Positions 314 through 16,763 of a stretch of 64,000 nt of DNA are shown piece by piece. Source of the stretch: Candidatus Alistipes faecigallinarum (GTDB taxonomy: Bacteria > Bacteroidota > Bacteroidia > Bacteroidales > Rikenellaceae); NCBI GenBank assembly GCA_019115605.1, contig DXDG01000016.1, positions 62,001 to 126,000 on the forward strand, given 5' to 3'. The notes under the pieces were generated by a model, which was given only the letters and a program-made list of their open reading frames with translations, was not told the origin of the DNA and searched no databases. The position numbers were made by a program, and so were the translations under genes. The first letter of the stretch is position 1; the number at the start of each line of letters is the position of its first letter.

Positions 314-569
314 TTCAGATCTCGTTTTGTTGTGGTCTGTATGTGTTATTTTTTGGCATATATATCGCTGAACGGGTGTTCTAAATGCCGCGATATGTGT
401 TCTATTGTTCCGTGCAAATTATTTTCCTAAAATTTGATTTGGAGATGTAAAAAAAAATCCCGAACATTGTATTGAGGGAGGCCCCAAAAAGGGTCCGGAC
501 CAGAAGGTCAGATAAGATCAAACGATTTACGAATCATTTGTTTTTGTCTGACTTTTTATTTTATGCGCT
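314..569. other. AT-rich intergenic region, left edge of the accessory island
   Basis: This 256-base gap holds no ORF that I can support. It is clearly AT-richer than the core DNA further right and has several homopolymer runs. I see near matches to TAnnTTTG but no exact copy with good spacing, so the promoter of the following cluster is not assigned. Confidence 0.5.
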
Positions 570-1292
570 ATGGCTCAACTGGTCTATTCTGGCATCCCGG
601 CGACGATCCGTACGTTCCGTTACGACGAGGTCGTCAGTTTCTGCGAGGTACGCAAGACATGGGGAGGTTTCTCGAACATGTCAAGCGAATATCCGCTATT
701 ATATAATGGTGTAATCTATCCCACGGCTGAACACCTCTATTTGGCCGGGCGCTTTTCTTCCCATCCGGAGATCGTTGCGGAAATCCTTGCTCACCGCAAT
801 GCCATGTACTGCAAACGACTGTTTCACGGTCGAGCATGGGCTCCGTTGATCCGTCCGGATTGGCCGGAATTGCAGCTGTCGTGGATGCGATTTGTCCTCA
901 ATCTCAAGTATGAACAGCATTCCTCATTCCGGCGGCTTCTGCAGCAGACGGCTGACAAGGTGATTCTTGAGGATTCGACAATGCTCGTCGGCAAGGATCC
1001 GCTCTGCGGCCATTCGAGCTTTTTCTGGGGCGCCAAGGATTTGACGCGCCGGGAGGCCATCCGTAACGAACGTCGTCGTATTACGCGCGAGGCACGTCTT
1101 GAGGGTTGGTCGCAGGCCCGGCTGAAGTTGGCCCGTGAGGAGGTCCGCGAGCGGATTGGGCAACAGGTCCGTGGTGAATTTGTCGGAGCTAACGTACTGG
1201 GGCTGCTCCTTACCGAGTTACGCGATTCGGGCCATCTCGAGTGTTCGATTCCGGAGGACCTGTTGCGGTTGCATGGTGTGACAGCTGCCTGA
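570..1292 (+). CDS. NADAR-family protein (DUF1768/YbiA-like), predicted N-glycosidase on ADP-ribose-type substrates
   Basis: The 240-residue product carries the NADAR signature: an FSN motif at about 34-36, then YNGVIYPTAEHLYLAGRF at 45-62 (family pattern Y-x-x-E-H-x-Y-x-A-x-K/R-F), FFWGA at 151-155, and the closing GANVLGLLLTELR helix at 206-218. NADAR proteins are known to cleave N-glycosidic bonds. Some reverse guanine ADP-ribosylation in DarT1-type toxin-antitoxin pairs, others act in riboflavin intermediate clearance or phage-conflict loci. Residues of about 165-205 form an Arg/Glu-rich helical insertion before the last motif. The ATG at 570 is the first good start. It heads a same-strand cluster and lies 16 bases upstream of the next gene. 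No ADP-ribosyltransferase partner is visible within the window. Confidence 0.85.
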   Translation: MAQLVYSGIPATIRTFRYDEVVSFCEVRKTWGGFSNMSSEYPLLYNGVIYPTAEHLYLAGRFSSHPEIVAEILAHRNAMYCKRLFHGRAWAPLIRPDWPELQLSWMRFVLNLKYEQHSSFRRLLQQTADKVILEDSTMLVGKDPLCGHSSFFWGAKDLTRREAIRNERRRITREARLEGWSQARLKLAREEVRERIGQQVRGEFVGANVLGLLLTELRDSGHLECSIPEDLLRLHGVTAA

Positions 1293-1308
1293 ATAGATTG
1301 ACGGAGCC

Positions 1309-1785
1309 ATGAAACGTCTGTTTTATCTTGCCTTGTCAGCCTGTGCCTTATTCGGATGTCGCCCCACGGAGAAGTCTGCCCAAATCGTCTTCTTCCGCGA
1401 AACGGCACCATTGCACAGCTACGCCACCGTACCTTGGGCGAAACTTGTCCGGGACTATTGGCGTCCGAACAGGAGCGATTGGAACCAGGAGGTCGAAAAG
1501 CAACTCGAGGAAACTGCATTCCCGTATGAGATTGCGGCCGCATACTGGGAACAACTGCAAAGCGCCCGGGAGTTTGTCCATCAGCGGAGTCTGCCGCTGC
1601 GGGCGGTAGCGACCCCGGAGTTTGTCGAGCGGCTTGACCAGCTGGAGGCCGCTTTCGATACGGTCTTTCTGCGGTGTATCTCCGAACCTTATTACATGCG
1701 GCTGCTGCCTGACATCTACAATGAGGTAATCCCGGAGCGACTTGATGTATTGGTCAAAGCGGCAAACAGCGAAGAAGACTATTAA
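1309..1785 (+). CDS. Small predicted lipoprotein of unknown function
   Basis: The 158-residue protein starts with a lipoprotein signal: MKRLFYLALSACALFGC, where LFGC is the lipobox and the cysteine is residue 17. The mature part is mostly helical and rich in aromatic and charged residues. It has no domain I recognise. Export and lipidation are therefore predicted, and the role is unknown. It lies 16 bases after the NADAR gene and 46 bases before the WG-repeat gene, so co-transcription is likely. An envelope lipoprotein inside a cluster with NAD/ADP-ribose-type enzymes is unusual and may mean the cluster is only partly functional as one unit. Confidence 0.75.
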   Translation: MKRLFYLALSACALFGCRPTEKSAQIVFFRETAPLHSYATVPWAKLVRDYWRPNRSDWNQEVEKQLEETAFPYEIAAAYWEQLQSAREFVHQRSLPLRAVATPEFVERLDQLEAAFDTVFLRCISEPYYMRLLPDIYNEVIPERLDVLVKAANSEEDY

Positions 1786-1831
1786 GTAGAATAATAAACA
1801 ATTGACGTATAACCAGTTAAATTTAAAAACC

Positions 1832-3838
1832 ATGACAAAGATTTCATTTGTATCCCAAACCGACGGCGAACTGTATGTCGATACCGAGAAGGTAGCAGCG
1901 ATTACGGCCAATGTACCCTGCGAGTTTGAACTGCCCAAAGGAGCCTATCAGTTCTGTTTTAACGAGACATCGGTAGAAGATGAGGCTACATGGTGGCCGA
2001 CAGTGTTCGATCTTCGGTTGAACGGTTTCGGTTCGGTTGATATCCAGCTGGAGGCGTGGAACAAAGTTCATATCAACCACCACGCAACGATCCGGAAGGA
2101 GGCTATTTTCTCGGATGGAATGACTGAATGTGTGAATTACGCCGAGGATGATCCGAATTCCGAAGTCGACGCCGGGCTGCGCAATGCTCGCCTCGAGACG
2201 CTCAAAACCTCGTACGATAAGGTAATTCCCTTCAACGAGGCGCTCATGATCGTTGTCCGTGAAGGGCTCTACGGCCTTTATGATTTGGATCGGGAGCGGT
2301 TGGTGCAACCCGTCAAGTACCAGAAAATCTGGAGTGCCACGCCGGAATATGCCATTATCCAGCAAGGAGATCTCTGCGGTCTGTTGAGCTCCGAAGGCGA
2401 GAAGCTGACGCCGATCAAATATGCCTGGATTGAGGCCAATACCTCCGCCCGGTTGATTCGGGTATTGATGGTTCCTTACACCGATCCGGAAAGTTCGTTC
2501 GGTCTTGTGGACCGGTCGGGCCATGAAATATTGCTTGGTCAACATGCCGGAATCCCTTCAGCTGAAAGCGATTTGTTCTCCCTCGAGGATTACAATCCGT
2601 GGGCTGATGTTCGGATTTCCACTTTCGGATTTTATAACGAACGGACGGGGGAATATATCCGGCCGAAGTATGACCAGGTCGGAATCCTGTGCCATAATCG
2701 CATGCGGGTCTGCCGGGATGGACTGTGGGGTTATGTCGACGGTAGGGGTCGCGAGGTAATTGCGCTTCGATTCGATCAGGTCGGGAACTTTATGGAGCAA
2801 GGTCTTGCACTGGCCGTACAGAATGGTCAATTCGGAATCATTGATCTTCAAGGAAATTATCTGGTGCAGCCCGAGTATCGCTCGATCGAGATTGTGGCGG
2901 ACCATTGGGTTGCAGCCCGTACGCAGAATGACCAGTATCGGCTGATCGTTCTGCGGGATTTCCGGGTTTTGCCGGCGGAGTATGACCAAATCAAATATCT
3001 CAACGGTCAGGTGATGCTCTTCAAGCAGGGTGAACAGTGGGGCTTGCTGGATCGGGAGGCAAAGGAGACCCTCATCGACGGAGCGTACGACGATCTGACC
3101 CGTCATGACGACCATCTGATTCGGGCCCGGCGTGGCGAGTTCTTCGGGTTGCTTGACCTGCAAGGCAGAGAGGTGCTTCCAATCGTTTATAAACAGATCG
3201 GTGAATGTCACAATGACTTCTTCTATGTGATTATTCCCAAAGAGAAAGAGAATTCGTCGTATTGGTTCCGATGGGGTTGTGTTGATGCGCAAGGGCATGA
3301 GAAGACCCCTCTGGAATACGACTCAATAGAACCGAGTCTGAATGCCGGAGTTTTCCGGGTAACCAGGGACGGCAAAGTCGGATTATGCGACCTGGAGGGC
3401 AACGAACTTCTTGTTCCCACATTCGATAACATCTATGATTTTTACAACGGAGTGGCCGTTGTTTGCCAAAACGGCCATATGGGAGCAATCGACGCGTCGG
3501 GGCAGGTGGTTGTTCCGATTGTCTACGATGACCTCTGGAACTTCCTCGGTGATACGGCGCTTGCCTCTCGTGACGGGAAGTGGGGTGCGGTCGACCGATC
3601 GGGTCGGGAAGTGATTCCCTGCCGATTTGCGGCAACGGAGAGCCGCTTGCACGACGGCTATGCCAAGGTCGGGATTACGGCCCCCTCCATGACGGATCCG
3701 GACTATTCGGCCGACTTCGTGGGGTATGTCAATGAATCGGGTGAAGAGATCCGGTTCCGGCAAGAGTTTGCAAGCTATTACGGCGAGTACGATGGACCGA
3801 ATCCCAATCTTGACGGTCGGGACATTTTCATGGACTAA
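1832..3838 (+). CDS. WG-repeat (KWG) protein
   Basis: The product has 668 residues if started at the ATG at 1832. A longer reading from a TTG at 1802 is open, but the ATG gives a clean beta-rich N-terminal domain. After about 135 residues there are roughly thirteen WG repeats of 35-50 residues, with the form Y-D-x-I/V ... G-x-W/Y/F-G-x-x-D-x-x-G-x-x-x-x-P. Clear copies are LWGYVDGRG, FGIIDLQG, WGLLDREA, FGLLDLQG, MGAIDASG and WGAVDRSG. WG repeats are thought to form a propeller-like or solenoid protein-binding scaffold. No signal peptide is visible, so a cytosolic location is likely. Its place between the lipoprotein and the 413-residue protein suggests a scaffold or sensor role, which is inference. 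Confidence 0.85.
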   Translation: MTKISFVSQTDGELYVDTEKVAAITANVPCEFELPKGAYQFCFNETSVEDEATWWPTVFDLRLNGFGSVDIQLEAWNKVHINHHATIRKEAIFSDGMTECVNYAEDDPNSEVDAGLRNARLETLKTSYDKVIPFNEALMIVVREGLYGLYDLDRERLVQPVKYQKIWSATPEYAIIQQGDLCGLLSSEGEKLTPIKYAWIEANTSARLIRVLMVPYTDPESSFGLVDRSGHEILLGQHAGIPSAESDLFSLEDYNPWADVRISTFGFYNERTGEYIRPKYDQVGILCHNRMRVCRDGLWGYVDGRGREVIALRFDQVGNFMEQGLALAVQNGQFGIIDLQGNYLVQPEYRSIEIVADHWVAARTQNDQYRLIVLRDFRVLPAEYDQIKYLNGQVMLFKQGEQWGLLDREAKETLIDGAYDDLTRHDDHLIRARRGEFFGLLDLQGREVLPIVYKQIGECHNDFFYVIIPKEKENSSYWFRWGCVDAQGHEKTPLEYDSIEPSLNAGVFRVTRDGKVGLCDLEGNELLVPTFDNIYDFYNGVAVVCQNGHMGAIDASGQVVVPIVYDDLWNFLGDTALASRDGKWGAVDRSGREVIPCRFAATESRLHDGYAKVGITAPSMTDPDYSADFVGYVNESGEEIRFRQEFASYYGEYDGPNPNLDGRDIFMD

Positions 3839-3878
3839 CCACCTGCCATCATAGTATTGTATTAAACTTGAATGAAGG

Positions 3879-5120
3879 ATGAGAACGAAAAAAATGCATC
3901 CCGTAGCCCAATATCGGGAAGACAACGATTTTTTGAAGCAGAATGCCGGATTCCTTTTCAAATACAAGGAATTGATCCTCGGTCACGCCTGGTTTCCATA
4001 TGTGCCCATACCGCTGGATATTCCAGGTATCAGACCGGTTCCGCTGGGTGCCCTGCTGGAGCTGGCAGGAAACAGCAGCGAGGAATTTTGCCTGCTTTGC
4101 GAGAATGCTACCTGGTGGGAACCCATCATTATGGACGGGATCCCAGATAAACTGGCGGTCATAACGGATCCGGAAATCGATATTGAATCCCCGTCTTCGC
4201 TTTTCCTATCCTTAAAAGAGCGGGCTGAAGCGCAGTTAGACGTCATACGAAACAGAGTCCGGGCTCTTTCGGAACTGTGCGCGCAATATAACCACGCGGA
4301 TGCCGTACCTCCAAAAGCGGACTTGAGAGAAGTCGTTTTTTCTTTGGAACGCGCCGGAAATTTGGCTTACCTCACAGATGAACAAGTGGAACGACTCCGC
4401 AGTCTGTTGTGTACCTTCAAGGTCTATGATAGCCTCGAAGAGATGGAGAATTCTCTGGTGGACGTCTTTCTCGAGAGTATCATTTCCGATTGTCGCGACG
4501 GAGCCAGTGTGACCTTTCGTCCCGAATATTTTCAGTATGCCTGGTCCCAGATAGATTACTCGTACCACTTTACTGCCCACTATGCCAAAGATCGGAACGT
4601 CTGTATTTTCTCGGAAAAAGCGGATATTATTAATTCGATTTGGTACATGCGTCGGGCTCAAGAAAAGTATCTGAAGACTCTTTATGTCTCCCGTTTCGAA
4701 GCGATCTTCAATGCTGTAGAGAAGGCAATCAAGGGAGATCCAGACCTTGAAATTGAAAATTTCAATCCTGAAACCCATTCTTTTACTCTAGCCAATCGAG
4801 TAAGTCGGGATCTTCCGGCATTAACCCTTTGGGAGGCTATCGACGGAGAAAATAACTTGGAGAAAGATATTTGGTGGCTTAGGTTGGTACTCGATGATGG
4901 TCCAGAAGACTTAGCAATAGACTTGATTAGGAAGGATGAAGAGCAAAGAAGACGCGAAAATGAACTGGCCCAACGGCAACGTGCTAAAATTTTGATACCA
5001 GCCCATGCTGACCTTTTGGAGCGAATTATCGATGGCGCGGCCTCGGACGAGGATCTGGATCAATGCGTTAAATTGTGCGATCAAATCGAATGGGATCAGC
5101 AGGAAGTCGAGAATGAATAG
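3879..5120 (+). CDS. Unrecognised 413-residue protein of the NADAR/DUF1810 cluster
   Basis: I cannot assign a family. The product is soluble-looking, without signal peptide or membrane segment. It is mixed alpha/beta in its first 110 residues and mostly helical after that. Around residues 355-375 there is a charged helix (RKDEEQRRRENELAQRQR) that could be a coiled coil or linker. The final 40 residues are acidic. The start could be 3879 or the ATG five codons later at 3894. The gene begins 40 bases after the WG-repeat gene. Its last 8 bases overlap the start of the DUF1810-HD gene, an arrangement that usually means coupled translation. It is the best candidate for a new component in this cluster. 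Confidence 0.7.
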   Translation: MRTKKMHPVAQYREDNDFLKQNAGFLFKYKELILGHAWFPYVPIPLDIPGIRPVPLGALLELAGNSSEEFCLLCENATWWEPIIMDGIPDKLAVITDPEIDIESPSSLFLSLKERAEAQLDVIRNRVRALSELCAQYNHADAVPPKADLREVVFSLERAGNLAYLTDEQVERLRSLLCTFKVYDSLEEMENSLVDVFLESIISDCRDGASVTFRPEYFQYAWSQIDYSYHFTAHYAKDRNVCIFSEKADIINSIWYMRRAQEKYLKTLYVSRFEAIFNAVEKAIKGDPDLEIENFNPETHSFTLANRVSRDLPALTLWEAIDGENNLEKDIWWLRLVLDDGPEDLAIDLIRKDEEQRRRENELAQRQRAKILIPAHADLLERIIDGAASDEDLDQCVKLCDQIEWDQQEVENE

Positions 5121-6162
5121 TATTATGATACGAATGAATAACAGAATGGAATTGGAACGCTTTATCAAGGCGCAGCACGGCACTTACGAGAAGGCATTCT
5201 CCGAAGTACGGCAGGGTCGCAAACGAACCCATTGGATCTGGTATATTTTCCCACAGTTGGTCGGCCTCGGGCACAGCTATAATGCCCATTATTACGGCAT
5301 TCGGGATCGAGACGAAGCGAAGGCCTATCTGGCTCATCCGGTGCTGGGAAGCCGTTTGCGGCAGATCTCAGAGCAGTTACTTACCGTCGAAGGGCGAACG
5401 GTTCGGGAAATTTTGGGAGATTTGGATGCCATGAAGGTCCGTTCTTCGATGACGCTGTTCGATGCAGTGAGCCCGAACGATATTTTCGGGTTGGTGCTGG
5501 ACAAATATTACGGAGGACAGCGGTGTCAGTTTACGCTTGAAATGTTGGGTGAAAGGATCGATTTGCAGGAGGCTCTCCGTTATATCGGGGTTGATCCGGC
5601 AGATTTTGCCCTCTACAATCCGATGTTCGCCCGGAGGGTGCACGCCCCGATTCACGGCATCGGACATATCTATCGGACGATGATTGCCTGCGCGCTGTTG
5701 GGCAAGGCCCTGAAGAAACCGCGCGAAGGGTTGCTGGCCTTCTGCGGCGCCTTTATTCACGACCTGGCTCGCCGAACGGATGGAGATGAACCTGAACACG
5801 GACCCAACGCGGCAACGTATTTTTTCGGCCGGTTCCAACGGTTGTGGGACAAGTACGGCCTGACGCCGGAAGAGTGTGAACAGGTGCGGCAGGCTGTTTC
5901 CCAACATTCAACGCGGGAATCATTGCATCCTTCGGATGAGGGTTATGCGGTGATGGCTATCCTCAAGGATGCCGATGCGCTGGATCGTTGCCGCCTGCAT
6001 AGAGGAGGGTTGAACCCCGACTGGCTCCGTTATCGGGAGAGCCGGCGGCTGATTGGCTTCATGGAGCAAATCTGCGCGAAAACCCGAACAGTGAACCGGG
6101 GGCTACCCTTTGCGGATTTTGTAGCGATGTGCCTTTCGAATAACCCATCTTCAGAAGTATAA
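5113..6162 (+). CDS. DUF1810 - HD-domain fusion protein
   Basis: The 349-residue protein has two parts. Residues 12-150 match the DUF1810 family: ELERFIKAQ, then RKRTHWIWYIFPQL, SSMTLFDAVSP and DKYYGGQRCQFTLEML. Residues 175-330 form an HD hydrolase domain with H181 and H185, the H216-D217 doublet (AFIHDLARR), and D286/D288 (LKDADALDR). HD domains with these ligands usually bind two metals and cleave phosphoester bonds in nucleotides or cyclic nucleotides. DUF1810 is normally a short stand-alone protein, and I know of no settled function. The start at 5113 was chosen because AGGAAG lies 6 bases upstream and the start overlaps the previous stop. ATGs at 5125, 5134 and 5146 are alternatives. 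Confidence 0.85.
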   Translation: MNSIMIRMNNRMELERFIKAQHGTYEKAFSEVRQGRKRTHWIWYIFPQLVGLGHSYNAHYYGIRDRDEAKAYLAHPVLGSRLRQISEQLLTVEGRTVREILGDLDAMKVRSSMTLFDAVSPNDIFGLVLDKYYGGQRCQFTLEMLGERIDLQEALRYIGVDPADFALYNPMFARRVHAPIHGIGHIYRTMIACALLGKALKKPREGLLAFCGAFIHDLARRTDGDEPEHGPNAATYFFGRFQRLWDKYGLTPEECEQVRQAVSQHSTRESLHPSDEGYAVMAILKDADALDRCRLHRGGLNPDWLRYRESRRLIGFMEQICAKTRTVNRGLPFADFVAMCLSNNPSSEV

Positions 6163-6238
6163 TGGAATCACATATTGAAATGCATCAGCCAGTTGATGCC
6201 CCTTAATTTTTTTGTCTAATTTATTAAATCTTATCACT

Positions 6239-6409
6239 ATGCTGGACAACTATTTGGTTAAGTATCGTTTTCAGAACTCCAATTGTCAGACGACATTGAC
6301 ACTCCATGGCGAGAGTGAGAGCGAAGCCATACAGAAACTTATTGAACGTGGAACTATTCCCGAGGAGTTGGCCGATGAGCTGATCATTTACTCCGTGGAG
6401 AAGCGGTAG
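6239..6409 (+). CDS. 56-residue hypothetical protein
   Basis: This small ORF starts at ATG 6239. It encodes MLDNYLVKYRF, a polar beta strand region, an amphipathic helix (SESEAIQKLIERG) and a short C-terminal strand. The beta-alpha-beta pattern and even charge distribution look like a folded small protein rather than a random ORF. I cannot name a family. It follows the DUF1810-HD gene by 76 bases on the same strand and is closed by a strong hairpin terminator at 6420-6455, so it is probably the last gene of that unit. Size and position would suit an antitoxin or regulator, which is only inference. Confidence 0.55.
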   Translation: MLDNYLVKYRFQNSNCQTTLTLHGESESEAIQKLIERGTIPEELADELIIYSVEKR

Positions 6410-6419
6410 TACATGACTG

Positions 6420-6455
6420 TCGACAGGTCCCCTTTACAGGGACCTGTCGAATCTT
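6420..6455 (+). terminator. Rho-independent terminator of the NADAR/WG/DUF1810-HD cluster
   Basis: A 12-bp stem (6420-6431 with 6439-6450, core CGACAGGTCCC) encloses a 7-base loop and is followed by ATCTTTT. It lies 11 bases after the stop of the 56-residue ORF and marks the end of the plus-strand unit. Confidence 0.8.
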
Positions 6456-6704
6456 TTGCCGACGTCCAACTCGCTGAATCGTATAGCTTATCGACTGTTT
6501 TCTTGGCTTGTTGTCCTATTAAAATAAACTTTGTTAGCCGGATTGTTACCATGCCGACTATAATCTAAAGAATCTGTATAATCTTTTACCCTTCTTATCC
6601 CAAGATATACTGAATAGTAATTCCAAGCGGTTTGTATACAAAAACGCAAAACGAATCGTAAACGAAGTCGGATTTATAAATCCGACTTCCTCGTATCACA
6701 ACTT
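6456..6704. terminator. Convergent intergenic region with a second hairpin (6664-6689), likely druE terminator
   Basis: No gene is seen here. A perfect inverted repeat, GAAGTCGGAT with ATCCGACTTC at 6664-6673 and 6680-6689, lies 15 bases beyond the druE stop on the minus strand. The T-run on that side is weak. The hairpin probably ends Druantia transcription and insulates it from the opposing cluster. Confidence 0.5.
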
Positions 6705-9700
6705 TCAGACTGGTTTTATCTCCACATCATACATAATCGTTTGATCCTTTGATGAGATATTTATATCACCTTCCGTCCCATCAACTGCATCCACATATCT
6801 TCCATTGCGTCCCAGGAACCAACCGTTTGGAATACCTCCATTCGGATAAAATACCAGGCATTCTCCTCCGGCCTCAACCTTCAGTTCTCGCCAATGAGGA
6901 AGGGTCTTCGGGGAGTTCGAGTTAATATTGAGATCTATTCCCTGTCCAAATACGCGATTGCAGAAATCCTTCAGCACTCCATCACGAGTCTGGTTATCCG
7001 GCAGATTGTCGGTAATTCTTGCGTTATTGGTTCGGCCGTCCCAATATTTTTCCATCTCGAAGCAGAGCTGAATATCTGAGGGTTGAAGAATCTCAACCAT
7101 CCGCTTGACGAACTGGACCGTGAGCAGCATGCCAAGTTCCGATTTCAGATGTTCGTCCTGATAGACAAAGCATACGCTTTGCCTCCGATGCCGCTCCATA
7201 AAAGACGTGATGGCTTTTTGACACTCGGGCTCGATGCCGCAGACCGTATCGTAGAGCTGCCGGACCGGAATCTCCGTCCCGGACGGAATCACAAACTTCC
7301 AACTGTTGCCGGCGTTGGGATTTACAGGTTCCAGGTTGGCGGATCGCAGCGCAGCGGCCATTCCCGGAAGCCGGTAGCAGGTATCTCCGCCCCAGTTCCC
7401 ATCCAGACGGGCGGCAGCGTTATCTTCTGTTACATACAGATCATTCCCTATGGCTGCTATCGGCCATACACCTGGAGTCAATACAGTCTGGGTCTGACGC
7501 AACGAAACATTCGCCTGGCAACGGACCAGAATCAAATATGTTGGGAAATCGATGGCCTTCGCCGTTCCATACAAACACAGAGATGTATTTGCCGGCGTAC
7601 AGTTTTTGTACCACAAGGCCCGGTTAATCGACAAAAAGTCATCATATTGTCCAACCGAATCGGCCGCGGCATAGAGCGTAACCGACGTTCCATCGGACAA
7701 GGCCCGAAGAATATCCGATTTTAAGGTAAACGAAATCTGAGCCTGCTGAGAAAGGTTCCGAATAGAGTCAGGAAGCGTTTCTCGCATCCTGTATTCTTCA
7801 TCCAACCAAGCCTTGGCAGCATCCAAATCTATCTTGTCGCTGTTATTGTAAGTATAGCGGTCAATCAGCATGTCGGGAGTCATCGCCTGAATCAATTCGC
7901 GGATATGATCCAAAACCACATAAATCAGCCCATTCATGCAAAGCCGATTGGAGTAACCGGCCCCACCCTTGGCCTGGTCATACACACACAGCGATCCGAA
8001 CGAGGTGATCAGATAATCGATATCACCCCGATTAATGCCGGTTCGTTCCGCCAATTCGTTGCATATCAGCATACCAAGCGTATGGCGCAGCTTTGTTCCA
8101 TCGAGGACCCATCCCGGAATGTGGATGTCGATTTCGGTATAGTCGGTCTGAATGGTATCCCCCAACACCACATTCCGCAGCAATCGGCCATCACGACGGG
8201 GATTAAACGAGCAGGCCCTGTCACTCTGAACGGATTGATGGGCTATACGCGTTCCGGTCATGAAGGAATCGGGCAAATCGGCCAGATTCTGTGTTGCTGC
8301 ACAAAACTCTGCCTCGGCTCTTCCACACCCAGACTTCGGACAAACACAAAATCCATATCCCATACCAACATTGTAAAACAAAATGGCGGAAGTAATATCT
8401 TCGGCAGAGCTGCGGACCCGGATCAAACGAGAATTATTAACTTGTGGCCAAGATGCTGTCCCGACCAGAGCAACCTCAGTCCTGTAGTATGGGGAATCGC
8501 GGATAAATCGATCGGCAGGATGATTGTTGTCAGAAACAAAGGTCAGTGGACGAATCATGGTTAGAGAGGTTTGGCCATTAACCTTAAAGCGTTGGCTTCC
8601 AGGCGTTCCATCAAGAAAGATCTGCCCGTCGTTATTCTGGGTAATAGAGACAAAATCCGTCTGCTGCCCATACATATTACTCCATCGCAACCCTCCGGAT
8701 ACATAACACTTATTCCCCAAAACAACAACACTTCCCGGTGCATATTGCGACAGAGCCTGCCGAAGCATATAGGAGGGCTTGTCCTGACTCTTGTCATAGT
8801 CAGACTTGGTGCTGAATTCCACCACATTAACCGGCATGGCAGCATTGGGTGTCACTTGATGTGTCGCCAGATATTGCGCCAAATTCGTTTTGAGTAAGGC
8901 TACAAAGGTTGCTTTCAACCAAGACCTATATCTTGCAAAACGATTAGCCTGGTGCTCTGGTTTGGTGTACTCCTCCTGGAGATACTTGAACCTGTCCTTC
9001 AATTCTTGATAAGCACGGTCGAGCATACTCACTGTAATTTGAGCTGCCTCAATCACTGTCATATTTGACAAGACTGTTCCCGCAACCAACGATGACAGAA
9101 TTTGTTGATCAGGAAGATCATTGCCCGATATGAGCTGATTCCTCAACGTAAAAAAGGAGGTCACGTCTGTATCAAGACAAAGCCCTCGAGCAGGAACAAC
9201 CGGAGTATGGTTGGTATCAACGACGACATCTCTTCCCTGATCATCTTCAAGCATGTAGGGTGTAAAAAAGTCAATGATTCGATCATTCAACCGGGGAGCA
9301 TTGCCACCATTTCCTACGGTTCGGATCATGAAAGCTGTAATATGCCGTTTAATCAGTTGTGGACTATTGAGATCCACCTTCGGAATATCGAATGGCCGAG
9401 TGATGAGATTCAAATAGGGATTCTGCATGGTCCGCAATCCCACGGGATCGCTGCCACACAGAGTTACGGCTGCACTGCGGCATTGACCATTTCGGCCGCT
9501 TCGACCTGCGCGCTGCTTGTAGTTCGCTGGATGAGGTGGTACGGAGTTCATCTCCACCAACTCCAAATCGCCAAGATCCACACCCATCTCCATAGTTGTC
9601 GAGCACGTTAAAATATTGATTTTATGCTCCCTGAATTCCTGCTGATAGACATCCAACAACCGCCTCTTGATCTGGGCAGTATGTTCCGCTGAAATATAAA

Positions 9701-12479
9701 TTTTCGGACTCAGATAATATTTTGCCGTCTGACGGGATACAGAGTTAAGGATGCGTCTATGGTCTTGGCACCATGCCTGTACATCCTCAACGGTCTCACA
9801 CGAAAAATCATACGGAATCCACACCTCTCCCTCAAGCGGTTCTACTTTGTGTAACTGATGGTTTTCATCCCAATACGGAGAGTACCCCTTAAATACATAG
9901 GGCAGCGGACGGTGTGTCACGGGGCATAACCAGGCTTTGCGATATAACTGTAGTTCCATCTGGGCCAGATTCAGTTGGATCTTGTCATTGGAGTGCCAGC
10001 CATTTTTATAAGATTTTCCTGTAACCAGAAGATCTCGCTTGCGCAAAGTATCCCACATGGCATGTAAAACACCTCCAACCAGTATTTTCTGTGCTTCGTT
10101 CATCTCCGACGGGGCCAATCCGAGCAGGCCGCAAAGCAGTTTGGTCCAACGATTATTCCCAAAGGTGGGTTCTTCAACCTCACGAGCAATATTTTGTTGC
10201 GAATAAAAGCGTCGGCATGTTTCCAGGCTAATCGTATGCCATGGATGATCCACATCTTGTTCGACTTGCTGATTTCGTTGATAGAAAGCGGCATTACGGC
10301 TGCGGACGGTGCAATCCAGATACATGTGCAGCAGAATCCGCCAGTCTTCCGGGTTGATCCGGTCCTCGTCCCGAGGAATAATATTGTTAAACCGTACGAC
10401 TTCGTCAGGCAATGTCAGATTATCATTGTCTATTGCCGGATAACGCATCCAGAGTAAACCCAGAGTTTCGGCAGCATTGGCCACCCTGGGACGTCGGGCC
10501 AGCTGCTCATACATTAAGGTCAATATATAACGATGCTTTACCACCTCAAGGATCCGACCCTGGTCATCGTAATCATCCGGAGAGTCGGCAAACTGTTGCA
10601 ACAACAGGCTGAAATCGGGATCCTTCTCTAATTGATCACACATCTTATTCCAACTAATCGGCTGGTCAGGCTGACTGGAAAGAAGATGGAATATCCGATT
10701 CAAAAGCCATTGACGCTCAACGTAGACCGACTGTTTGAGCGTGATACGGGCTGCAGCCTGACGGCTGTCGATAAAACTGATGAACTGTTGGCCATCATGA
10801 GGCAGGCCTTGTCCCGACGTTTGGGTTTGATCCAACAAGACCGGGCTCAAAATACGGCTTAAATATTGAGCCGAGATGCGGAATGACTTGAGTTCTACCG
10901 GTTTGCGTGGAGAGGTCTGATCATTACCCCGACGATCCCCCTTCAGGAACGAAGATTTACAATAAGGGCATTCGTCTCCGGCCGAGCAATTCAGTGTTCC
11001 ATGTTGCGGATTGTACATGAATGTATGTCCGGCTTGGACTTCATACTCATTACCCGGGCAGAAATAAAGCGTTTTTGGAACTGTGCGATTATTATTATCG
11101 GCTGTGGTATCATTATCATCATCTCCGTCATCATCATATTCGTTGTCCTCCATGTCAAAAATATTCACTCGATCCTCATTGCGCATGGGTTGATAATTGT
11201 GATCGCTGACAGAACCGGATGCTTTGGCGAGCAATGTTCCACAATAGGGGCAACGGGCCAACTCCAGCAGTGGAAAATCCGTATCATTGTCCTGCTGCTG
11301 GTTAAACAACTCAAAACGCCCGTCATGAATCTTATTGAGGCGCACGCTCAAGCCTTCGGAAAGTGTGCGGAAAAAGTAGTGTACTTTAACTGGCAGAAGG
11401 CAATACTCACACAATTCGTCCAATAAGCCAAGCTTCTCAGCGATTGTCTTGCCTTCGGGTATAAGTCCGTTCAGTGGAACATATTCCGATTCCGGGCGGA
11501 GCAGGATATCCCGGATCTCGCGCTGTCGGGCCTTAGACAGAAGCGGTTGATCCGATTCGCACCAATTAGTCGGACAAACACGCTTGCCGGAGATTATTTC
11601 AATCTGAGATTCCTGCTTTCCTGAAATACCTGCAATGAATTTTTTAAGATCGGCATCGTTCCCCGAACCAGTCGTAGCCGACGAGGTGATAAACTGTACC
11701 TGATTAAGCGGCACTCCGGCAGCAAGCAGGAAACGGCGAAGTAAAAGAGCCAATTCTGCCGCCGCAGCCCCCTTGAATGTATGGGTTTCATCAATAACGA
11801 TCCAGCGCAGATTACTTGCCTGAGTAAGAACTAGCATGTCCTTTTTCCGCAACAGCATATACTCCAACATGGTCGGATTGGTTACCAGAATTTCGGGCGG
11901 AGTCAACCGAATTGCATCCCGGGTATTGATCTCATGATCGAGCGGAGCGACGTAATTGTCGTCCTGGTCGTTTTCGGGCGTATTCCCGTTATAAGTTGCA
12001 AAACGCAGATCCTTACCGCTTGCCTCGATATACTTGCTGAAGCGGGTCTTCTGATCCTCGGCCAGGGCATTTAACGGATAGAGGAAGAGGGCCTGCACGC
12101 CATTTCCCGGAACGGCATTGTGGATGATCGGCAACATGAAACATTCCGTTTTGCCGGAGCCCGTACCCGTCGTCACACAGATGGATTTACCCTGTTCGAG
12201 CGCCTTCCAGCTTGCGAATTGATGCATGTACGGCGTATACGGGGCAGTCCAGGCAACCAGATGATCGATCTCCCGCTGCGGCGCGGTGCTGGCCTCCCAG
12301 GGGAACATGGACTGAACCACCGGAAAACAATCATCGGGACAGAATGTTTCCCGAACAATCTTTCTGAAATCATTAAGATAGGGATCATCCCGACGTGTTG
12401 TATCATCTCCCTGCCAATAAGAGGTAACCGACTCTACAACCTCCCGGCATGCGTTCTCATATAAATCTTTGAATTTCAT
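6705..12479 (-). CDS. druE: DruE-like giant DEAD/DEAH helicase with DUF1998, Druantia anti-phage system
   Basis: The 1,924-residue protein is a superfamily 2 helicase. Motif I is GTGSGKTE at 105-112, motif II is DETH at 230-233, motif III is SSAT at 266-269, and motif VI is QRAGRSGR at 990-997. The stretch TMEMGVDLGD at 963-972 precedes motif VI. Two CxxC pairs (411/414, 505/508) flank a very acidic linker at about 443-465, and FIDSRQAAAR lies near 570-579. The C-terminal third has the DUF1998 layout, ending in LCVYDQAKGGAGYSNRL. Druantia DruE is known as an 1,800-2,100-residue helicase with DUF1998. Length, domains and the upstream partner fit type III. A MrfA-like or DISARM-type helicase is the alternative, but no DrmC or methylase gene is present. 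Confidence 0.8.
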   Translation of the reverse strand: MKFKDLYENACREVVESVTSYWQGDDTTRRDDPYLNDFRKIVRETFCPDDCFPVVQSMFPWEASTAPQREIDHLVAWTAPYTPYMHQFASWKALEQGKSICVTTGTGSGKTECFMLPIIHNAVPGNGVQALFLYPLNALAEDQKTRFSKYIEASGKDLRFATYNGNTPENDQDDNYVAPLDHEINTRDAIRLTPPEILVTNPTMLEYMLLRKKDMLVLTQASNLRWIVIDETHTFKGAAAAELALLLRRFLLAAGVPLNQVQFITSSATTGSGNDADLKKFIAGISGKQESQIEIISGKRVCPTNWCESDQPLLSKARQREIRDILLRPESEYVPLNGLIPEGKTIAEKLGLLDELCEYCLLPVKVHYFFRTLSEGLSVRLNKIHDGRFELFNQQQDNDTDFPLLELARCPYCGTLLAKASGSVSDHNYQPMRNEDRVNIFDMEDNEYDDDGDDDNDTTADNNNRTVPKTLYFCPGNEYEVQAGHTFMYNPQHGTLNCSAGDECPYCKSSFLKGDRRGNDQTSPRKPVELKSFRISAQYLSRILSPVLLDQTQTSGQGLPHDGQQFISFIDSRQAAARITLKQSVYVERQWLLNRIFHLLSSQPDQPISWNKMCDQLEKDPDFSLLLQQFADSPDDYDDQGRILEVVKHRYILTLMYEQLARRPRVANAAETLGLLWMRYPAIDNDNLTLPDEVVRFNNIIPRDEDRINPEDWRILLHMYLDCTVRSRNAAFYQRNQQVEQDVDHPWHTISLETCRRFYSQQNIAREVEEPTFGNNRWTKLLCGLLGLAPSEMNEAQKILVGGVLHAMWDTLRKRDLLVTGKSYKNGWHSNDKIQLNLAQMELQLYRKAWLCPVTHRPLPYVFKGYSPYWDENHQLHKVEPLEGEVWIPYDFSCETVEDVQAWCQDHRRILNSVSRQTAKYYLSPKIYISAEHTAQIKRRLLDVYQQEFREHKINILTCSTTMEMGVDLGDLELVEMNSVPPHPANYKQRAGRSGRNGQCRSAAVTLCGSDPVGLRTMQNPYLNLITRPFDIPKVDLNSPQLIKRHITAFMIRTVGNGGNAPRLNDRIIDFFTPYMLEDDQGRDVVVDTNHTPVVPARGLCLDTDVTSFFTLRNQLISGNDLPDQQILSSLVAGTVLSNMTVIEAAQITVSMLDRAYQELKDRFKYLQEEYTKPEHQANRFARYRSWLKATFVALLKTNLAQYLATHQVTPNAAMPVNVVEFSTKSDYDKSQDKPSYMLRQALSQYAPGSVVVLGNKCYVSGGLRWSNMYGQQTDFVSITQNNDGQIFLDGTPGSQRFKVNGQTSLTMIRPLTFVSDNNHPADRFIRDSPYYRTEVALVGTASWPQVNNSRLIRVRSSAEDITSAILFYNVGMGYGFCVCPKSGCGRAEAEFCAATQNLADLPDSFMTGTRIAHQSVQSDRACSFNPRRDGRLLRNVVLGDTIQTDYTEIDIHIPGWVLDGTKLRHTLGMLICNELAERTGINRGDIDYLITSFGSLCVYDQAKGGAGYSNRLCMNGLIYVVLDHIRELIQAMTPDMLIDRYTYNNSDKIDLDAAKAWLDEEYRMRETLPDSIRNLSQQAQISFTLKSDILRALSDGTSVTLYAAADSVGQYDDFLSINRALWYKNCTPANTSLCLYGTAKAIDFPTYLILVRCQANVSLRQTQTVLTPGVWPIAAIGNDLYVTEDNAAARLDGNWGGDTCYRLPGMAAALRSANLEPVNPNAGNSWKFVIPSGTEIPVRQLYDTVCGIEPECQKAITSFMERHRRQSVCFVYQDEHLKSELGMLLTVQFVKRMVEILQPSDIQLCFEMEKYWDGRTNNARITDNLPDNQTRDGVLKDFCNRVFGQGIDLNINSNSPKTLPHWRELKVEAGGECLVFYPNGGIPNGWFLGRNGRYVDAVDGTEGDINISSKDQTIMYDVEIKPV

Positions 12480-12492
12480 ATGTAGTTACTTT

Positions 12493-15400
12493 TTAGTTAC
12501 ATAAAAACTCATACAGATCAGCATAATTGATCCCATCAAAATCACTCATGCGACCTGATCTTTGCTCATGTCCCATATCCATATTAGCATCCTTCGCATC
12601 ACCCCGCAGGCATTGTGCGACGCGATTGGCAGACAGATTGCTACGCCGAAACCGCATCGGAAGCCGCCAGAATTCAGCAACAACGCGTTTTTTATCCGGT
12701 TCCATCGTACCATCATCCGGTTTGCTCTCCAGCAGTTCCTGAACCGCCGATTTCAACCGGGCTTGTTCCTCCTTATTTTGCCCCGACTGACGGATCACCT
12801 CCAACCAGGTGGAACGAGAAACAGCCCACCAGTCAAACAACATCTCGGACGAAAGTCGGTACAAGGCTTGATAATCGACCTGTTCGGTTTGGGCACATAA
12901 AGATACAAAAAATTGAGCGAACCGGAAGGAAATAGAACGAATAGATCGCAATTCAGGCATCTGCATATCATCGCATAATTGACAGTTGTAACAATCGTCC
13001 TGGAAATCATTGCTCGTCCAGGTCAAAGCGCACAGCCGGTCAAAAACATTGAAATAGAGGGAATGCTCAACTGCCAACCGGAAGTCGCGAACCGCTCCGT
13101 CCCAATCCGGTTGATGGGCATACCGACAAACCCGTTTGTGCCGTCGGAAATTTCGTGTATTATAATTGAGGGCGGCCTCATTAGCCTGAGAGGATGAGGG
13201 AACATACCTGGGTCTGAAATAGTACAGCGGAAGCGTATCCAATTCGGCCAAAGTTTGAAACAGCATACCTTCGTTCGGCGAATCAAAGTGTAATTCCGTT
13301 TTACCATCCTGCTCGATACACTGTACATCTACAATCTTTCCACTCGCAAACTCGTAGAATAGGAATCGACAGAATTTCAGACGATCGCCGTTGAGATTGA
13401 TGAAATACCCCTGCCGATTATTTTTAATAATATTGGAGGAATATGGCATAAACCTGATTTTCAGAATCTCTACAACATTCTGATTGTTCGGATAGTACAA
13501 GTCCTTGTATATGGTATACCAAACCGACCCAGGACCCGACTTTTGAGCAAAATCCAGCCGGACGCACCCGTGTTCATCAACCCGTCGCAATTGGTAGAAA
13601 GCGAGAAACTTTAATGGAAGATAATTAATATTTGCTGGAATCAACACATCAGTATTTCGAATAAAGATAGAACCGTCATCAGATATGGGTCGATATACCT
13701 CAAGTGTCAACGAATCATTGCCACTCCGAATGGTATAAGGAACCGTATCAGCCTGCTCATTGCTATTGACCGACAATGTCTCTGCATCCAAATTGGAAGA
13801 GCGAATCTGATAAAGTCGCAGATCCCGTTCAAGCGTTGCATCGTCTGGGATGACAAAGCATGAAACGGAGGCTTTTTTCCCGGTGGCTTTATCCAATACA
13901 ACAACCTCACAAAAGCCGTGTTGTTCGGCATTATTTCCTATTAGTTTTTCTCTGAAACGGGGTGTCTCGGTCCCATTTTCAATATACCCATTGAATTTTG
14001 TTGAACGTTTGATCAAAAAAACAGGATGGACAACATTGTCTTTGTCTCGGTATTCGACCTTTCCATTCCGGTAGCGGACCGCATTTGAGAAAAGTTGTTC
14101 CTGCGGCTCCACATAAAGCGTTCCCGCCACGTAAGGCAAAATTGCCAATTTTTTACCTCCATAACTGTATTCAATACGCGAATAAACCGGAATCCACAAG
14201 CTCTCCCCGCAGACAGCGGCTTCAGGCGAGCCTGTTTCAACCTTGAATTTCATCCGATCCAATACAAATAGGGCTTTTTCTCCAACCTGTTTTCGACTGC
14301 TCCAGCGATTCTGTTGTTCGAGCGTAAACGGGATGCAAGGTGGCAGATCCAAAGTTTGAAGGGTGTCTCCTTCTCTTTCGGAAGTCCGCCAACCGATTGT
14401 CAATGGATGCAACCAGGAGATACGACGTTCTCCGCTCAGCACACCATAATGAGATGCCGCAGGATACCGCCCGTAATCGGATGCCAATATGAATTTAAAG
14501 AAGCCTCCGGCATTGTAAAAATAATCGCGGCCTACGGCCCTGTAAAACGGGATTGTCAACAAGGGAATGCGCCCTTGTTTGATAACGATCTCAAAGAGAT
14601 TCTCATCATCAGGAATACCCCACATGCGTGCCGTTTCAATCGGAATATCCTTGTTGGGCCGGGTCGTCCGGGGATTGGAATGCAGGCACAGGAGCAACGC
14701 CATGGCGAGCTGATCATCGTCGTCGGACTTCCATGCCAGCCATTCCAGGTAAAACTTACCCGGACGCCGTCGCTGATCGGCCTTTCGCCTGCCTTCCAAT
14801 ACGAATTTCCGGAAGGAGACGAAAGGCTCCTGCGAAAGATCCTCTTCAGCGATGGGCCAGCCGATATCCCCATCCTGACGCAAAGCACTCAAGCAATCCA
14901 CATAAGATCGGATCGAGTCGGATTGAGCCATAACCTGGTTGCGAAAAACATCATCCTCCTCGGACAACTCATCGGATGTTTGCTCCCCGGGAGCAAAATA
15001 CGCTGCCAAAGTATCAACCATGTTGTTATTCCGGTTCTTCTGCACGATATAGTTTACCGGAAGACCTCCCTGCACATACATCGACCAGAGCCATTCCCGA
15101 TGGTTGCCCGCATGGCAGACGTTTTCTTCGCCATAAGCCCTGCAGAATATCTCTTGAGCTATTCCAGGTCCAATCAGTCCGATATCTTCCAGCGCATTAT
15201 TTTCCAAATCATATCCATTGAATTCTCGCTTGAACCATTCTGCACAATACACGGCTACCAATCGGGAAAAAAGCCGAATGGCTTGATCGTTTCCCAACCT
15301 TTTGATCGTAGTTTTTATATTGCCCTGTGTCCCGAAAAACTCGTTTACAATCTTAGCCAGATTCTTTTTCAATATCTCATATACCGAAGACGGAATCTTC

Positions 15401-15921
15401 CACTGCCAGATATACCGTTTGCCAAAGTTTTTCAGATCATCGCCCCATTTTTCAGTAAAAGCGCTCAGATTCTCCGAACAGACATCCGTTGCCTCTACCG
15501 GTCTCACCTCTTTTCGTCGAATGGAAGTTTTTTTTAAATCACACTCCTGCGTCACCCCATATTCCTGGGATACCGGAGCAGACAAATGCCCATATTTAGA
15601 CCTATTAAACTCGACATGCACCTCATCCACATGACTCAGCATCGGAGAATCCAGCATGGCGACCAACCGATCCGGTTCGACAGGACCGATCATTGAAGAA
15701 ATATTGGCACAACATGCTTCCCGAGAGAGTTTCAGTAATTTTTTCCGGAAAGGTTCTAACTTTTTAAAAATAGATTGCAAGGCGCTATCTTTTTCCCGGA
15801 ATTCCAGATCCCAGCCGATTCCTTCAGTAAGCAGGACACATAACAACATGCAACTTTCCATAGTTTCTTGCTGTTTCATCAAGTTCAGATAGACAATAGA
15901 CTTCAGCTTCCCAATCGTCAT
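12493..15921 (-). CDS. druH: DruH-like protein, partner of DruE (Druantia type III)
   Basis: The 1,142-residue protein has no catalytic motif that I recognise and no membrane segments. Near the C-terminus a cysteine cluster (CYNCQLC) could bind a metal. The assignment rests on context: Druantia type III consists of just two genes, a protein of about 1,000-1,200 residues (DruH) followed by druE. Here the stop is 13 bases upstream of the druE start on the same strand, so the two are almost certainly one transcript. No exact TAnnTTTG element was found upstream. A closer start at an internal ATG (MKQQETMES) is possible. The mechanism of DruH is not known. Confidence 0.7.
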   Translation of the reverse strand: MTIGKLKSIVYLNLMKQQETMESCMLLCVLLTEGIGWDLEFREKDSALQSIFKKLEPFRKKLLKLSREACCANISSMIGPVEPDRLVAMLDSPMLSHVDEVHVEFNRSKYGHLSAPVSQEYGVTQECDLKKTSIRRKEVRPVEATDVCSENLSAFTEKWGDDLKNFGKRYIWQWKIPSSVYEILKKNLAKIVNEFFGTQGNIKTTIKRLGNDQAIRLFSRLVAVYCAEWFKREFNGYDLENNALEDIGLIGPGIAQEIFCRAYGEENVCHAGNHREWLWSMYVQGGLPVNYIVQKNRNNNMVDTLAAYFAPGEQTSDELSEEDDVFRNQVMAQSDSIRSYVDCLSALRQDGDIGWPIAEEDLSQEPFVSFRKFVLEGRRKADQRRRPGKFYLEWLAWKSDDDDQLAMALLLCLHSNPRTTRPNKDIPIETARMWGIPDDENLFEIVIKQGRIPLLTIPFYRAVGRDYFYNAGGFFKFILASDYGRYPAASHYGVLSGERRISWLHPLTIGWRTSEREGDTLQTLDLPPCIPFTLEQQNRWSSRKQVGEKALFVLDRMKFKVETGSPEAAVCGESLWIPVYSRIEYSYGGKKLAILPYVAGTLYVEPQEQLFSNAVRYRNGKVEYRDKDNVVHPVFLIKRSTKFNGYIENGTETPRFREKLIGNNAEQHGFCEVVVLDKATGKKASVSCFVIPDDATLERDLRLYQIRSSNLDAETLSVNSNEQADTVPYTIRSGNDSLTLEVYRPISDDGSIFIRNTDVLIPANINYLPLKFLAFYQLRRVDEHGCVRLDFAQKSGPGSVWYTIYKDLYYPNNQNVVEILKIRFMPYSSNIIKNNRQGYFINLNGDRLKFCRFLFYEFASGKIVDVQCIEQDGKTELHFDSPNEGMLFQTLAELDTLPLYYFRPRYVPSSSQANEAALNYNTRNFRRHKRVCRYAHQPDWDGAVRDFRLAVEHSLYFNVFDRLCALTWTSNDFQDDCYNCQLCDDMQMPELRSIRSISFRFAQFFVSLCAQTEQVDYQALYRLSSEMLFDWWAVSRSTWLEVIRQSGQNKEEQARLKSAVQELLESKPDDGTMEPDKKRVVAEFWRLPMRFRRSNLSANRVAQCLRGDAKDANMDMGHEQRSGRMSDFDGINYADLYEFLCN

Positions 15922-16600
15922 ATATTTATCAATATTAGATTCTTACAATATTCAGATCATGTGTGCATAGCAGTAACTGCTGCTACGAGAATTCCCTACG
16001 ACTGTTTTAACGGATAAAATACGTAATAAAAATAATATAAAAGATCCGTTCTCGCAATAACATATTTGATTGTCGTTAAGTTGGTTCACATCCAGATTTC
16101 AGGCTAATCTATGGCCTGCTTCAGTTCCAATACAGTGATTGCTTTCCGGACATTCGCTGCCGTAAGGCCTGCTTCCGGATTTCAGAAAGTCCTCCTCATC
16201 TCCCAGGGTGATATAGGTAGTACCTGTTCAAGCATGTCAGACCAGTCACTCGGCAATTCCAGATTCACGATAACCCAAGGTAAATACGATAAGCGATTCC
16301 CCAGCAAAAAATGAGGTAGACACCGTATTCATAAAACGGAGCCACATCGGCTACTCGGATTAGGCGTTGTTGCCGCATGGTACCTGCGAGCGACCACAAC
16401 CGTGTGCCGGCTGAGACAGGTGAATCTCGAGAAGTTTTACCGGAAAAGGCTTTGGGCGCATCGATTTCACGAGAATTTAGAACCCCCAAATGGCGAACAA
16501 CAACCATAAGATGCCGTCAGAAAACAACTAAAATTATTCGATTCCTTTTCGAGGTGGAGCAAAATTGGAGGACATCTGTTTGTTTCTCAAAATAAAAGGT
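15922..16600. other. Low-coding region upstream of Druantia, possible decayed coding fragments
   Basis: About 680 bases lack a convincing gene. On the minus strand between about 16,100 and 16,320, two successive open segments (one containing LPWVIVNLELPSDWSDMLEQ, the next ending VRKAITVLELKQAID) are separated by a single in-frame stop. This looks like a decayed C-terminal coding region. An 80-residue minus-strand ORF at 16,265-16,507 may be its frame-shifted upstream part. None matches a family I recognise. Confidence 0.35.
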
Positions 16601-16608
16601 TATCTTTG
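16601..16608 (+). promoter_or_regulatory. Bacteroidota promoter -7 element TATCTTTG with a TTTG at 16579-16582
   Basis: A perfect TATCTTTG is preceded by TTTG with an 18-base spacer, close to the ideal -33/-7 layout for the phylum's primary sigma factor. It drives only a micro-ORF that ends 155 bases downstream. Confidence 0.6.
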
Positions 16609-16631
16609 CATCGTAGTAGGAAATCGACCCC

Positions 16632-16763
16632 GTGAAACCCTGCAAAATGGTGCACAGTTTTTCGGTGGAGCAACCGCGGGAGACAGTCCCTTTTGCCGAA
16701 ATCCAATTCAAAGAGATACAGCTACTTAATCAAATAGTTCGATTCCTGGTGGTACCACTTTGA
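16632..16763 (+). CDS. Micro-ORF at the right edge of the island
   Basis: A 43-codon ORF starts at GTG 16632, or at ATG 16647 for 38 residues. It sits between a good promoter and a good terminator. Its last 12 codons run through the tRNA-3'-end-like stretch (16737-16756), which argues that the C-terminus is a by-product of integration. The reading could instead be the start of a gene truncated by insertion, or the real product could be a small RNA. No family is recognised. Confidence 0.3.
   Translation: MKPCKMVHSFSVEQPRETVPFAEIQFKEIQLLNQIVRFLVVPL
16737..16757 (+). other. tRNA 3'-end-like sequence, candidate attachment-site scar
   Basis: GTTCGATTCCTGGTGGTACC followed by A resembles the T-loop (TTCGATT), the T-stem 3' strand (CCTGG) and an acceptor 3' strand (TGGTACC) plus discriminator A of a tRNA. 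The bases upstream (AATAG) cannot pair with CCTGG, so no complete tRNA is present. A lone tRNA 3' end at an island edge is what tyrosine-recombinase integration leaves behind. This is inferred from sequence likeness only; the parental tRNA is not in the window. Confidence 0.45.

Follow-up and report, generated by a model that had tools for sequence, protein, structure and literature searches.

What function, if any, joins a NADAR-domain protein, a predicted lipoprotein, a WG-repeat protein, an orphan of 413 residues (here U413) and a DUF1810-HD fusion, encoded one after another on the plus strand (570–6162) of a 64,000-nucleotide stretch from Candidatus Alistipes faecigallinarum? The stretch, below called the window, comprises bases 62001–126000 of contig 3 (DXDG01000016.1) in a 2.18-Mb assembly (GCA_019115605.1). 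We propose that the five genes may form an ADP-ribose clean-up module that has no ADP-ribosyltransferase of its own and undoes ADP-ribosylation by a phage or competitor, a reading to which we give a probability of roughly 0.4 and which draws on the genes and domains present, on fusions in relatives and on the composition of the surrounding island. An earlier, sequence-only reading of this DNA had pointed toward NAD or ADP-ribose; that direction is kept here and sharpened by fusions of DUF1810 to ADP-ribosylglycohydrolase (ARH) and of HD to NADAR, and by the likeness of the HD model to phosphodiesterases.

The link between DUF1810 and ADP-ribose comes from relatives. Confirmed loci on GTDB contigs number at least 552; the best 80 were examined, all of them carrying DUF1810, and we found ARH in 12, a match to a PARG-domain protein (its N-terminal half) in five and NADAR in two. 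ARH lay within 150 bp of DUF1810 in nine of the 12 ARH-bearing loci; in six of the 12 the two shared a single stop-free frame and in the other six they were separate, and Pfam confirmed both domains in those six shared frames as well as in a locus on a viral contig (L105; locus numbers are ours). Control stretches gave no match to such ADP-ribose erasers, either in 216 kb of contig starts or in 279 kb around HD genes. Because the best 80 loci are the top-scoring ones, a second, less selected sample was drawn from 286 genomes of the order, ten of which have DUF1810, at 12 places in all, one of these in the window's own genome; at two of the 11 other places (L227 and L230) ARH stood in the same stop-free frame. 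Shared frames number ten overall, and Pfam was run on eight. To judge by these sequences, the DUF1810-ARH link is real, but for a minority of DUF1810 genes. HD domains are in turn fused to NADAR in relatives, among the homologues listed.

One same-genus locus (L163:5197–11762, all on one strand) is a sister ADP-ribose cluster, in which a DUF1810-ARH fusion of 673 residues has an MreB/Mbl-like gene and then SIR2 (two genes downstream) on one side and two orphans and then a WG-repeat gene (three genes upstream) on the other. A WG gene is also near DUF1810 in one of the best 80 loci (L063).

The window's DUF1810-HD protein has 1631 homologues, itself counted, of which 120 were listed, some with one of the two domains only; among 268 genomes of the family, the two domains meet in one protein in its own genome only, according to the match spans and the open frames. 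When the window protein was aligned with 26 homologues chosen from the 120, H174, H178, H209-D210, D279, D281 and D284 were invariant (27 of 27), and the H, HD and D motif residues of metal-dependent HD phosphohydrolases are conserved in the HD half. In the structure model (predicted local distance difference test, pLDDT, 91.0; predicted template modelling score, pTM, 0.85), this half tentatively resembles phosphodiesterases of ADP-ribosylated ubiquitin (SidE/Dup-type, Legionella effectors) at 9–17% identity, a likeness judged from structure; unlike those enzymes, it retains the canonical HD residues. The only solved DUF1810 protein found was Rv1873 (2jek; entry title, conserved hypothetical), which, unlike the window fusion, is a single domain. 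Phages carry relatives of NADAR and of the HD half, since in PHROGs the former is matched by phrog_1017 and the latter by phrog_3921 (both listed as function unknown); a 735-kb phage encodes an HD-half relative of 33% identity (LR756501.1 and LR756503.1, 43863–44441). WWE domains read ADP-ribose, and a giant-virus WWE domain-containing protein (A0A5B8IHI9) was a weak structural match in BFVD (E 0.06).

The protein search gave 12 homologues of the window NADAR, the query counted. When 23 chosen NADARs were aligned, Glu54 proved invariant and Lys82 and Glu134 almost invariant, and the window protein keeps all three. Position 61, seven residues after Glu54, is Arg in the window protein, and some sister proteins have Leu or Gln there; using the residue spacing given in a part of PMC11543638, according to which the catalytic Lys95 of the E. 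coli C7 enzyme lies seven residues after the catalytic Glu, we equated this position with the catalytic Lys. In a tree of the same 23 proteins, the window NADAR and metagenomic proteins form a well-supported group of six; HTH-NADAR fusions fall outside it, as does a set in which NADARs near ADP-ribosyltransferase-like genes stand together with NADAR-HD fusions. The best NCBIfam model for its core (residues 14–137) was NF053876 (DS32_2; E 6.1e-30).

In the family, NADAR occurs in 13 of 268 genomes, the window's own included (12 of the 13 above the cut-off). Four of the 12 others have an ADP-ribosyltransferase-like gene near NADAR (L196–L199; all Pfam transferase matches below the cut-off), adjoining it in L198 and L199 and at a distance of one gene in L196 and of two genes in L197; these are candidate toxin-antitoxin pairs. 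An ARH is also present in L197, NADAR and ARH are fused in L200, and L201 encodes a PARG-domain protein along with KptA. HTH-NADAR proteins were found in five of the 12 (Pfam HTH in L192; the others by alignment or by eye), and the surroundings of these fusions (L191–L195) look mobile; upstream of several lie a short gene and an orphan of 285–295 residues. Published NADAR antitoxins, as presented in parts of PMC11125620, are partners of DarT1 and YarT. Like the NADARs of the DarT1-NADAR and YarT-YbiA pairs, that of the window retains the core glutamate (PMC11543638 and PMC11125620, in the parts concerned); it differs from them in the Arg at the catalytic Lys position and in having no recognised ADP-ribosyltransferase in its cluster.

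By analogy with these enzymes, the window NADAR would cut ADP-ribose off a guanine-type N-glycosidic adduct of DNA or RNA, or would handle a related soluble derivative, a substrate considered because the catalytic Lys position is changed. DUF1810 may hold or hydrolyse ADP-ribosyl groups, as its fusion to ARH suggests, and the HD phosphohydrolase, from its fold and the fusions, may open the pyrophosphate, either on the adduct or in freed ADP-ribose. The WG-repeat protein and U413 would act as scaffold or substrate adaptors, which is the weakest step. An immune role is plausible from the position of the cluster, in a low-GC (guanine plus cytosine) island common with Druantia, and by analogy with a published prediction.

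That prediction, in passages of Iyer et al. 2022 (PMC9503650), concerns ARG-centred host systems that would counter viral ADP-ribosylation. According to these passages, a phosphatase partner (rhodanese-type, HD, calcineurin or HAD) is present in a little over 55% of the systems, and more than 42% have a Nudix or WYL regulator, which is hence not obligatory; peptide-binding chaperones (vWA, SseB, TY) also occur, and the lineages named include actinobacteria, planctomycetes and proteobacteria. Like the systems described there, the window cluster pairs an ADP-ribose eraser with an HD phosphatase, has no coupled transferase or sirtuin by Pfam and contains NADAR, an accessory listed there, the accessory genes being variable in both. 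Unlike them, it seems to have WG and U413 in place of the listed chaperones; Pfam found no vWA, SseB or TY in the window cluster, and in relatives vWA adjoins DUF1810 (L166, L167 and L168) or lies three genes downstream of DUF1810-HD (L145). DUF1810 occurs 0 times in the main text of that article. By analogy, then, the cluster would function like the ARG-centred systems without being a member. The sequence-only reading had seen no toxin-like ADP-ribosyltransferase, and Pfam likewise found none in the six products encoded between 570 and 6409 (E up to 0.1), though one too diverged could escape Pfam; following the logic of those passages, the modifier would therefore be extrinsic.

U413 belongs to a family of 15 proteins, itself counted, from 5.8 billion searched (the 7996 best candidates were scored), with identities of 49–77% among the other 14. 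It was found in its own genome only among 200 genomes and was absent from GTDB r220 contigs, a set that may lack records close to the window's genome. By profile comparison, its N-terminal third is akin to an Alistipes-family zinc-ribbon family; beyond that third, a mid-confidence model gave no convincing structural match. A row of zinc-ribbon-type proteins that are kin of the U413 N-terminus stands in a same-genus relative (L225:4967–7346). With a second copy included in the profile, U413 was matched in 2 of 268 family genomes, and in the one besides its own (G240) the match was limited to 59 N-terminal residues, on a zinc-ribbon-type protein. The second gene (contig bases 53810–54964, minus strand) lies upstream of the window NADAR, 7.6 kb from its start, encodes a protein of 25% identity and is directly followed by a decayed NADAR (the two at L004:11003–12964) that is 41% identical to HTH-NADAR and 27% to the window NADAR. 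The U413-NADAR adjacency recurs only at this second copy in the own genome, with a NADAR that is decayed and of a different clade, and backs a U413-NADAR partnership no more than moderately. Further upstream, a row of a WYL-HAD_SAK_2 fusion (L004:5432–6895, ~14 kb upstream and outside the cluster), a zinc-ribbon-type protein akin to the U413 N-terminus, a 355-residue orphan and an MBL-RMMBL gene (L004:5432–10001) looks like an RNA-repair or conflict set.

The five genes are separated by gaps of 16, 46 (16 with the alternative TTG start of the WG gene), 40 and 13 nt (Table 1). The earlier description of six same-strand genes with short gaps and one terminator stands for the open reading frames (ORFs) and their order, but the sixth ORF may not belong, because a wide gap and a second terminator-like hairpin intervene. 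An overlap of U413 with DUF1810-HD was an artefact of a mechanical ORF start at 5005, inside the neighbour; the real start is near 5134. As had been described, NADAR, WG-repeat and DUF1810-HD proteins are present, all above Pfam cut-offs, and the 413-residue protein is unrecognised. The lipoprotein call is kept as a prediction, with a lipobox-like motif, and no family above the cut-off was found for it in Pfam and none in NCBIfam, PADLOC or PHROGs. Terminator-like sites in the region number 8 against 7.7 expected by chance, and the closing hairpin is therefore distinguished by its stem length alone.

The island (bases 314–16700, edges read by eye from GC values) has a GC of 0.486, against 0.622 in bases 17001–64000, and a GC of 0.632 was found in an upstream stretch (L004 14501–20000) that starts with a PD-(D/E)XK gene. 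It contains the five-gene cluster and a Druantia-like pair on the opposite strand, the two converging; the Druantia operon that the cluster had been said to face is borne out, with a weak DruH3. PADLOC-DB 2023 gave no defence-system match for any of the six products (E up to 0.1).

Table 1. Features of the cluster and its Druantia-like neighbour (window positions)
Feature	Position	Strand	Evidence or remark
Imperfect inverted repeat, 24 nt, candidate operator, attenuator or upstream-transcript terminator	504–555	+	79% complementary, 4-nt loop, then T-rich; just 5' of first gene
NADAR-domain protein, 240 aa	570–1292	+	Pfam NADAR 55.5 bits (cut-off 35.1)
Predicted lipoprotein, 158 aa	1309–1785	+	Lipobox-like LFGC, by eye
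WG-repeat protein, 668 aa	1832–3838	+	Pfam WG_beta_rep 178 bits; TTG start at 1802 possible
U413, 413-aa orphan	3879–5120	+	No Pfam family
DUF1810-HD fusion, 342 aa	5134–6162	+	Pfam DUF1810 186 bits, HD 25.3 bits (cut-off 22)
Terminator-like hairpin	6182–6199	+	3' of DUF1810-HD
ORF of 56 aa, doubtful member	6239–6409	+	76 nt downstream, beyond hairpin 6182–6199; no Pfam family above cut-off
Terminator-like hairpin	6420–6450	+	12-bp stem; closes cluster; strongest such site
DruE-type helicase (DruE3), Druantia type III-like pair	6705–12479	-	PADLOC-DB, 914 bits; neighbour, non-member
DruH3-like protein	12493–15921	-	PADLOC-DB, weak match, 26 bits; neighbour, non-member

Several points weigh against the clean-up reading. 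The complete cluster was found in one genome only, and U413 and the lipoprotein are without an explanation. No eraser match was found in 64 of the best 80 DUF1810 loci (16 had at least one), nor within short flanks at nine of the 11 places of the less selected sample; the controls are small (1.09 Mb gave 12 ARH matches, and the 0.50 Mb of controls gave 0), and we regard the shared DUF1810-ARH frames as the stronger evidence. On the HD side, the best effector match (13.0) and the plain HD hydrolase 2pq7 differ by no more than one Z unit, 2pq7 was the only HD entry obtained from the sequence profile (E 0.0092), Foldseek E-values were 0.14 or worse, and a more distant sister HD gene (L150) adjoins histidine-degradation-type genes, which argues for a wider substrate range. 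The window NADAR carries Arg61 where the E. coli C7 enzyme has its catalytic Lys95, and it scored 103.7 bits against a cut-off of 240 with the anti-phage NADAR model NF053876, of which it is thus a non-member although this is its best-matching model. Measured by Pfam against the systems described in the passages of Iyer et al. 2022, the cluster has no ARG, leaving NADAR as the sole recognised eraser, and none of the six products is a Nudix or WYL regulator.

The scarcity of the complete cluster invites the view that unrelated accessory genes gathered in one island and are co-transcribed by chance, with no joint function. Homologues of both U413 and DUF1810-HD were found, as the sequence-only reading had proposed to check, but no second genome with the set, and the search for a conserved neighbourhood, as far as it was run, yielded none. 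The longest contigs of the 15 U413 matches and the 120 listed DUF1810-HD matches share one size only (13778), and those of the 12 NADAR matches have none in common with either; further repair or conflict-type genes also lie nearby. Such accretion is nevertheless unlikely in view of the tight same-strand spacing with a closing terminator, the HD-NADAR fusions in relatives, and the WG genes found near DUF1810 in three (L163, L166 and L168) of the 14 same-genus loci that carry it.

Less probable again is metabolite damage control, in which NADAR would be a YbiA-like N-glycosidase acting on riboflavin- or NAD-derived waste and DUF1810-HD would recycle phosphosugars, with no role in conflict. YbiA (2b3w) was the only solved relative of the window NADAR found by sequence, the NCBIfam riboflavin N-glycosidase model matched it below the cut-off (52.3 against 73.7 bits), and the sister HD gene in L150 adjoins formiminotransferase-cyclodeaminase and amidohydrolase genes; however, the sporadic distribution of U413 and of the one-protein DUF1810-HD, the island with Druantia and the fusions, which indicate ADP-ribose, all argue otherwise. 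Least probable of the three is that the genes form an abortive or toxin-antidote system complete in itself, with U413 or the WG protein doing the harm and NADAR and DUF1810-HD restraining it or cleaning up, for all that it would suit the ADP-ribosyltransferase-like neighbours of relatives' NADARs, the published antitoxins, the high variability of U413 and the NADAR remnant behind its second copy.

The clean-up reading can be extended, at odds that we consider unfavourable, to DUF1810-HD as an ADP-ribose eraser of a new class, acting in bacterial immunity, in which DUF1810 would recognise or unload the ADP-ribosyl group and HD, a host-side counterpart of SidE/Dup, would destroy it, while NADAR, WG and U413 would contribute target specificity against the ADP-ribosyltransferases of phages. 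The finding of greater weight is that fusions assign DUF1810 and its HD partner to the turnover of ADP-ribose: they give DUF1810 a concrete biochemical hypothesis and place a phosphodiesterase-like HD domain in this turnover outside pathogen effectors.
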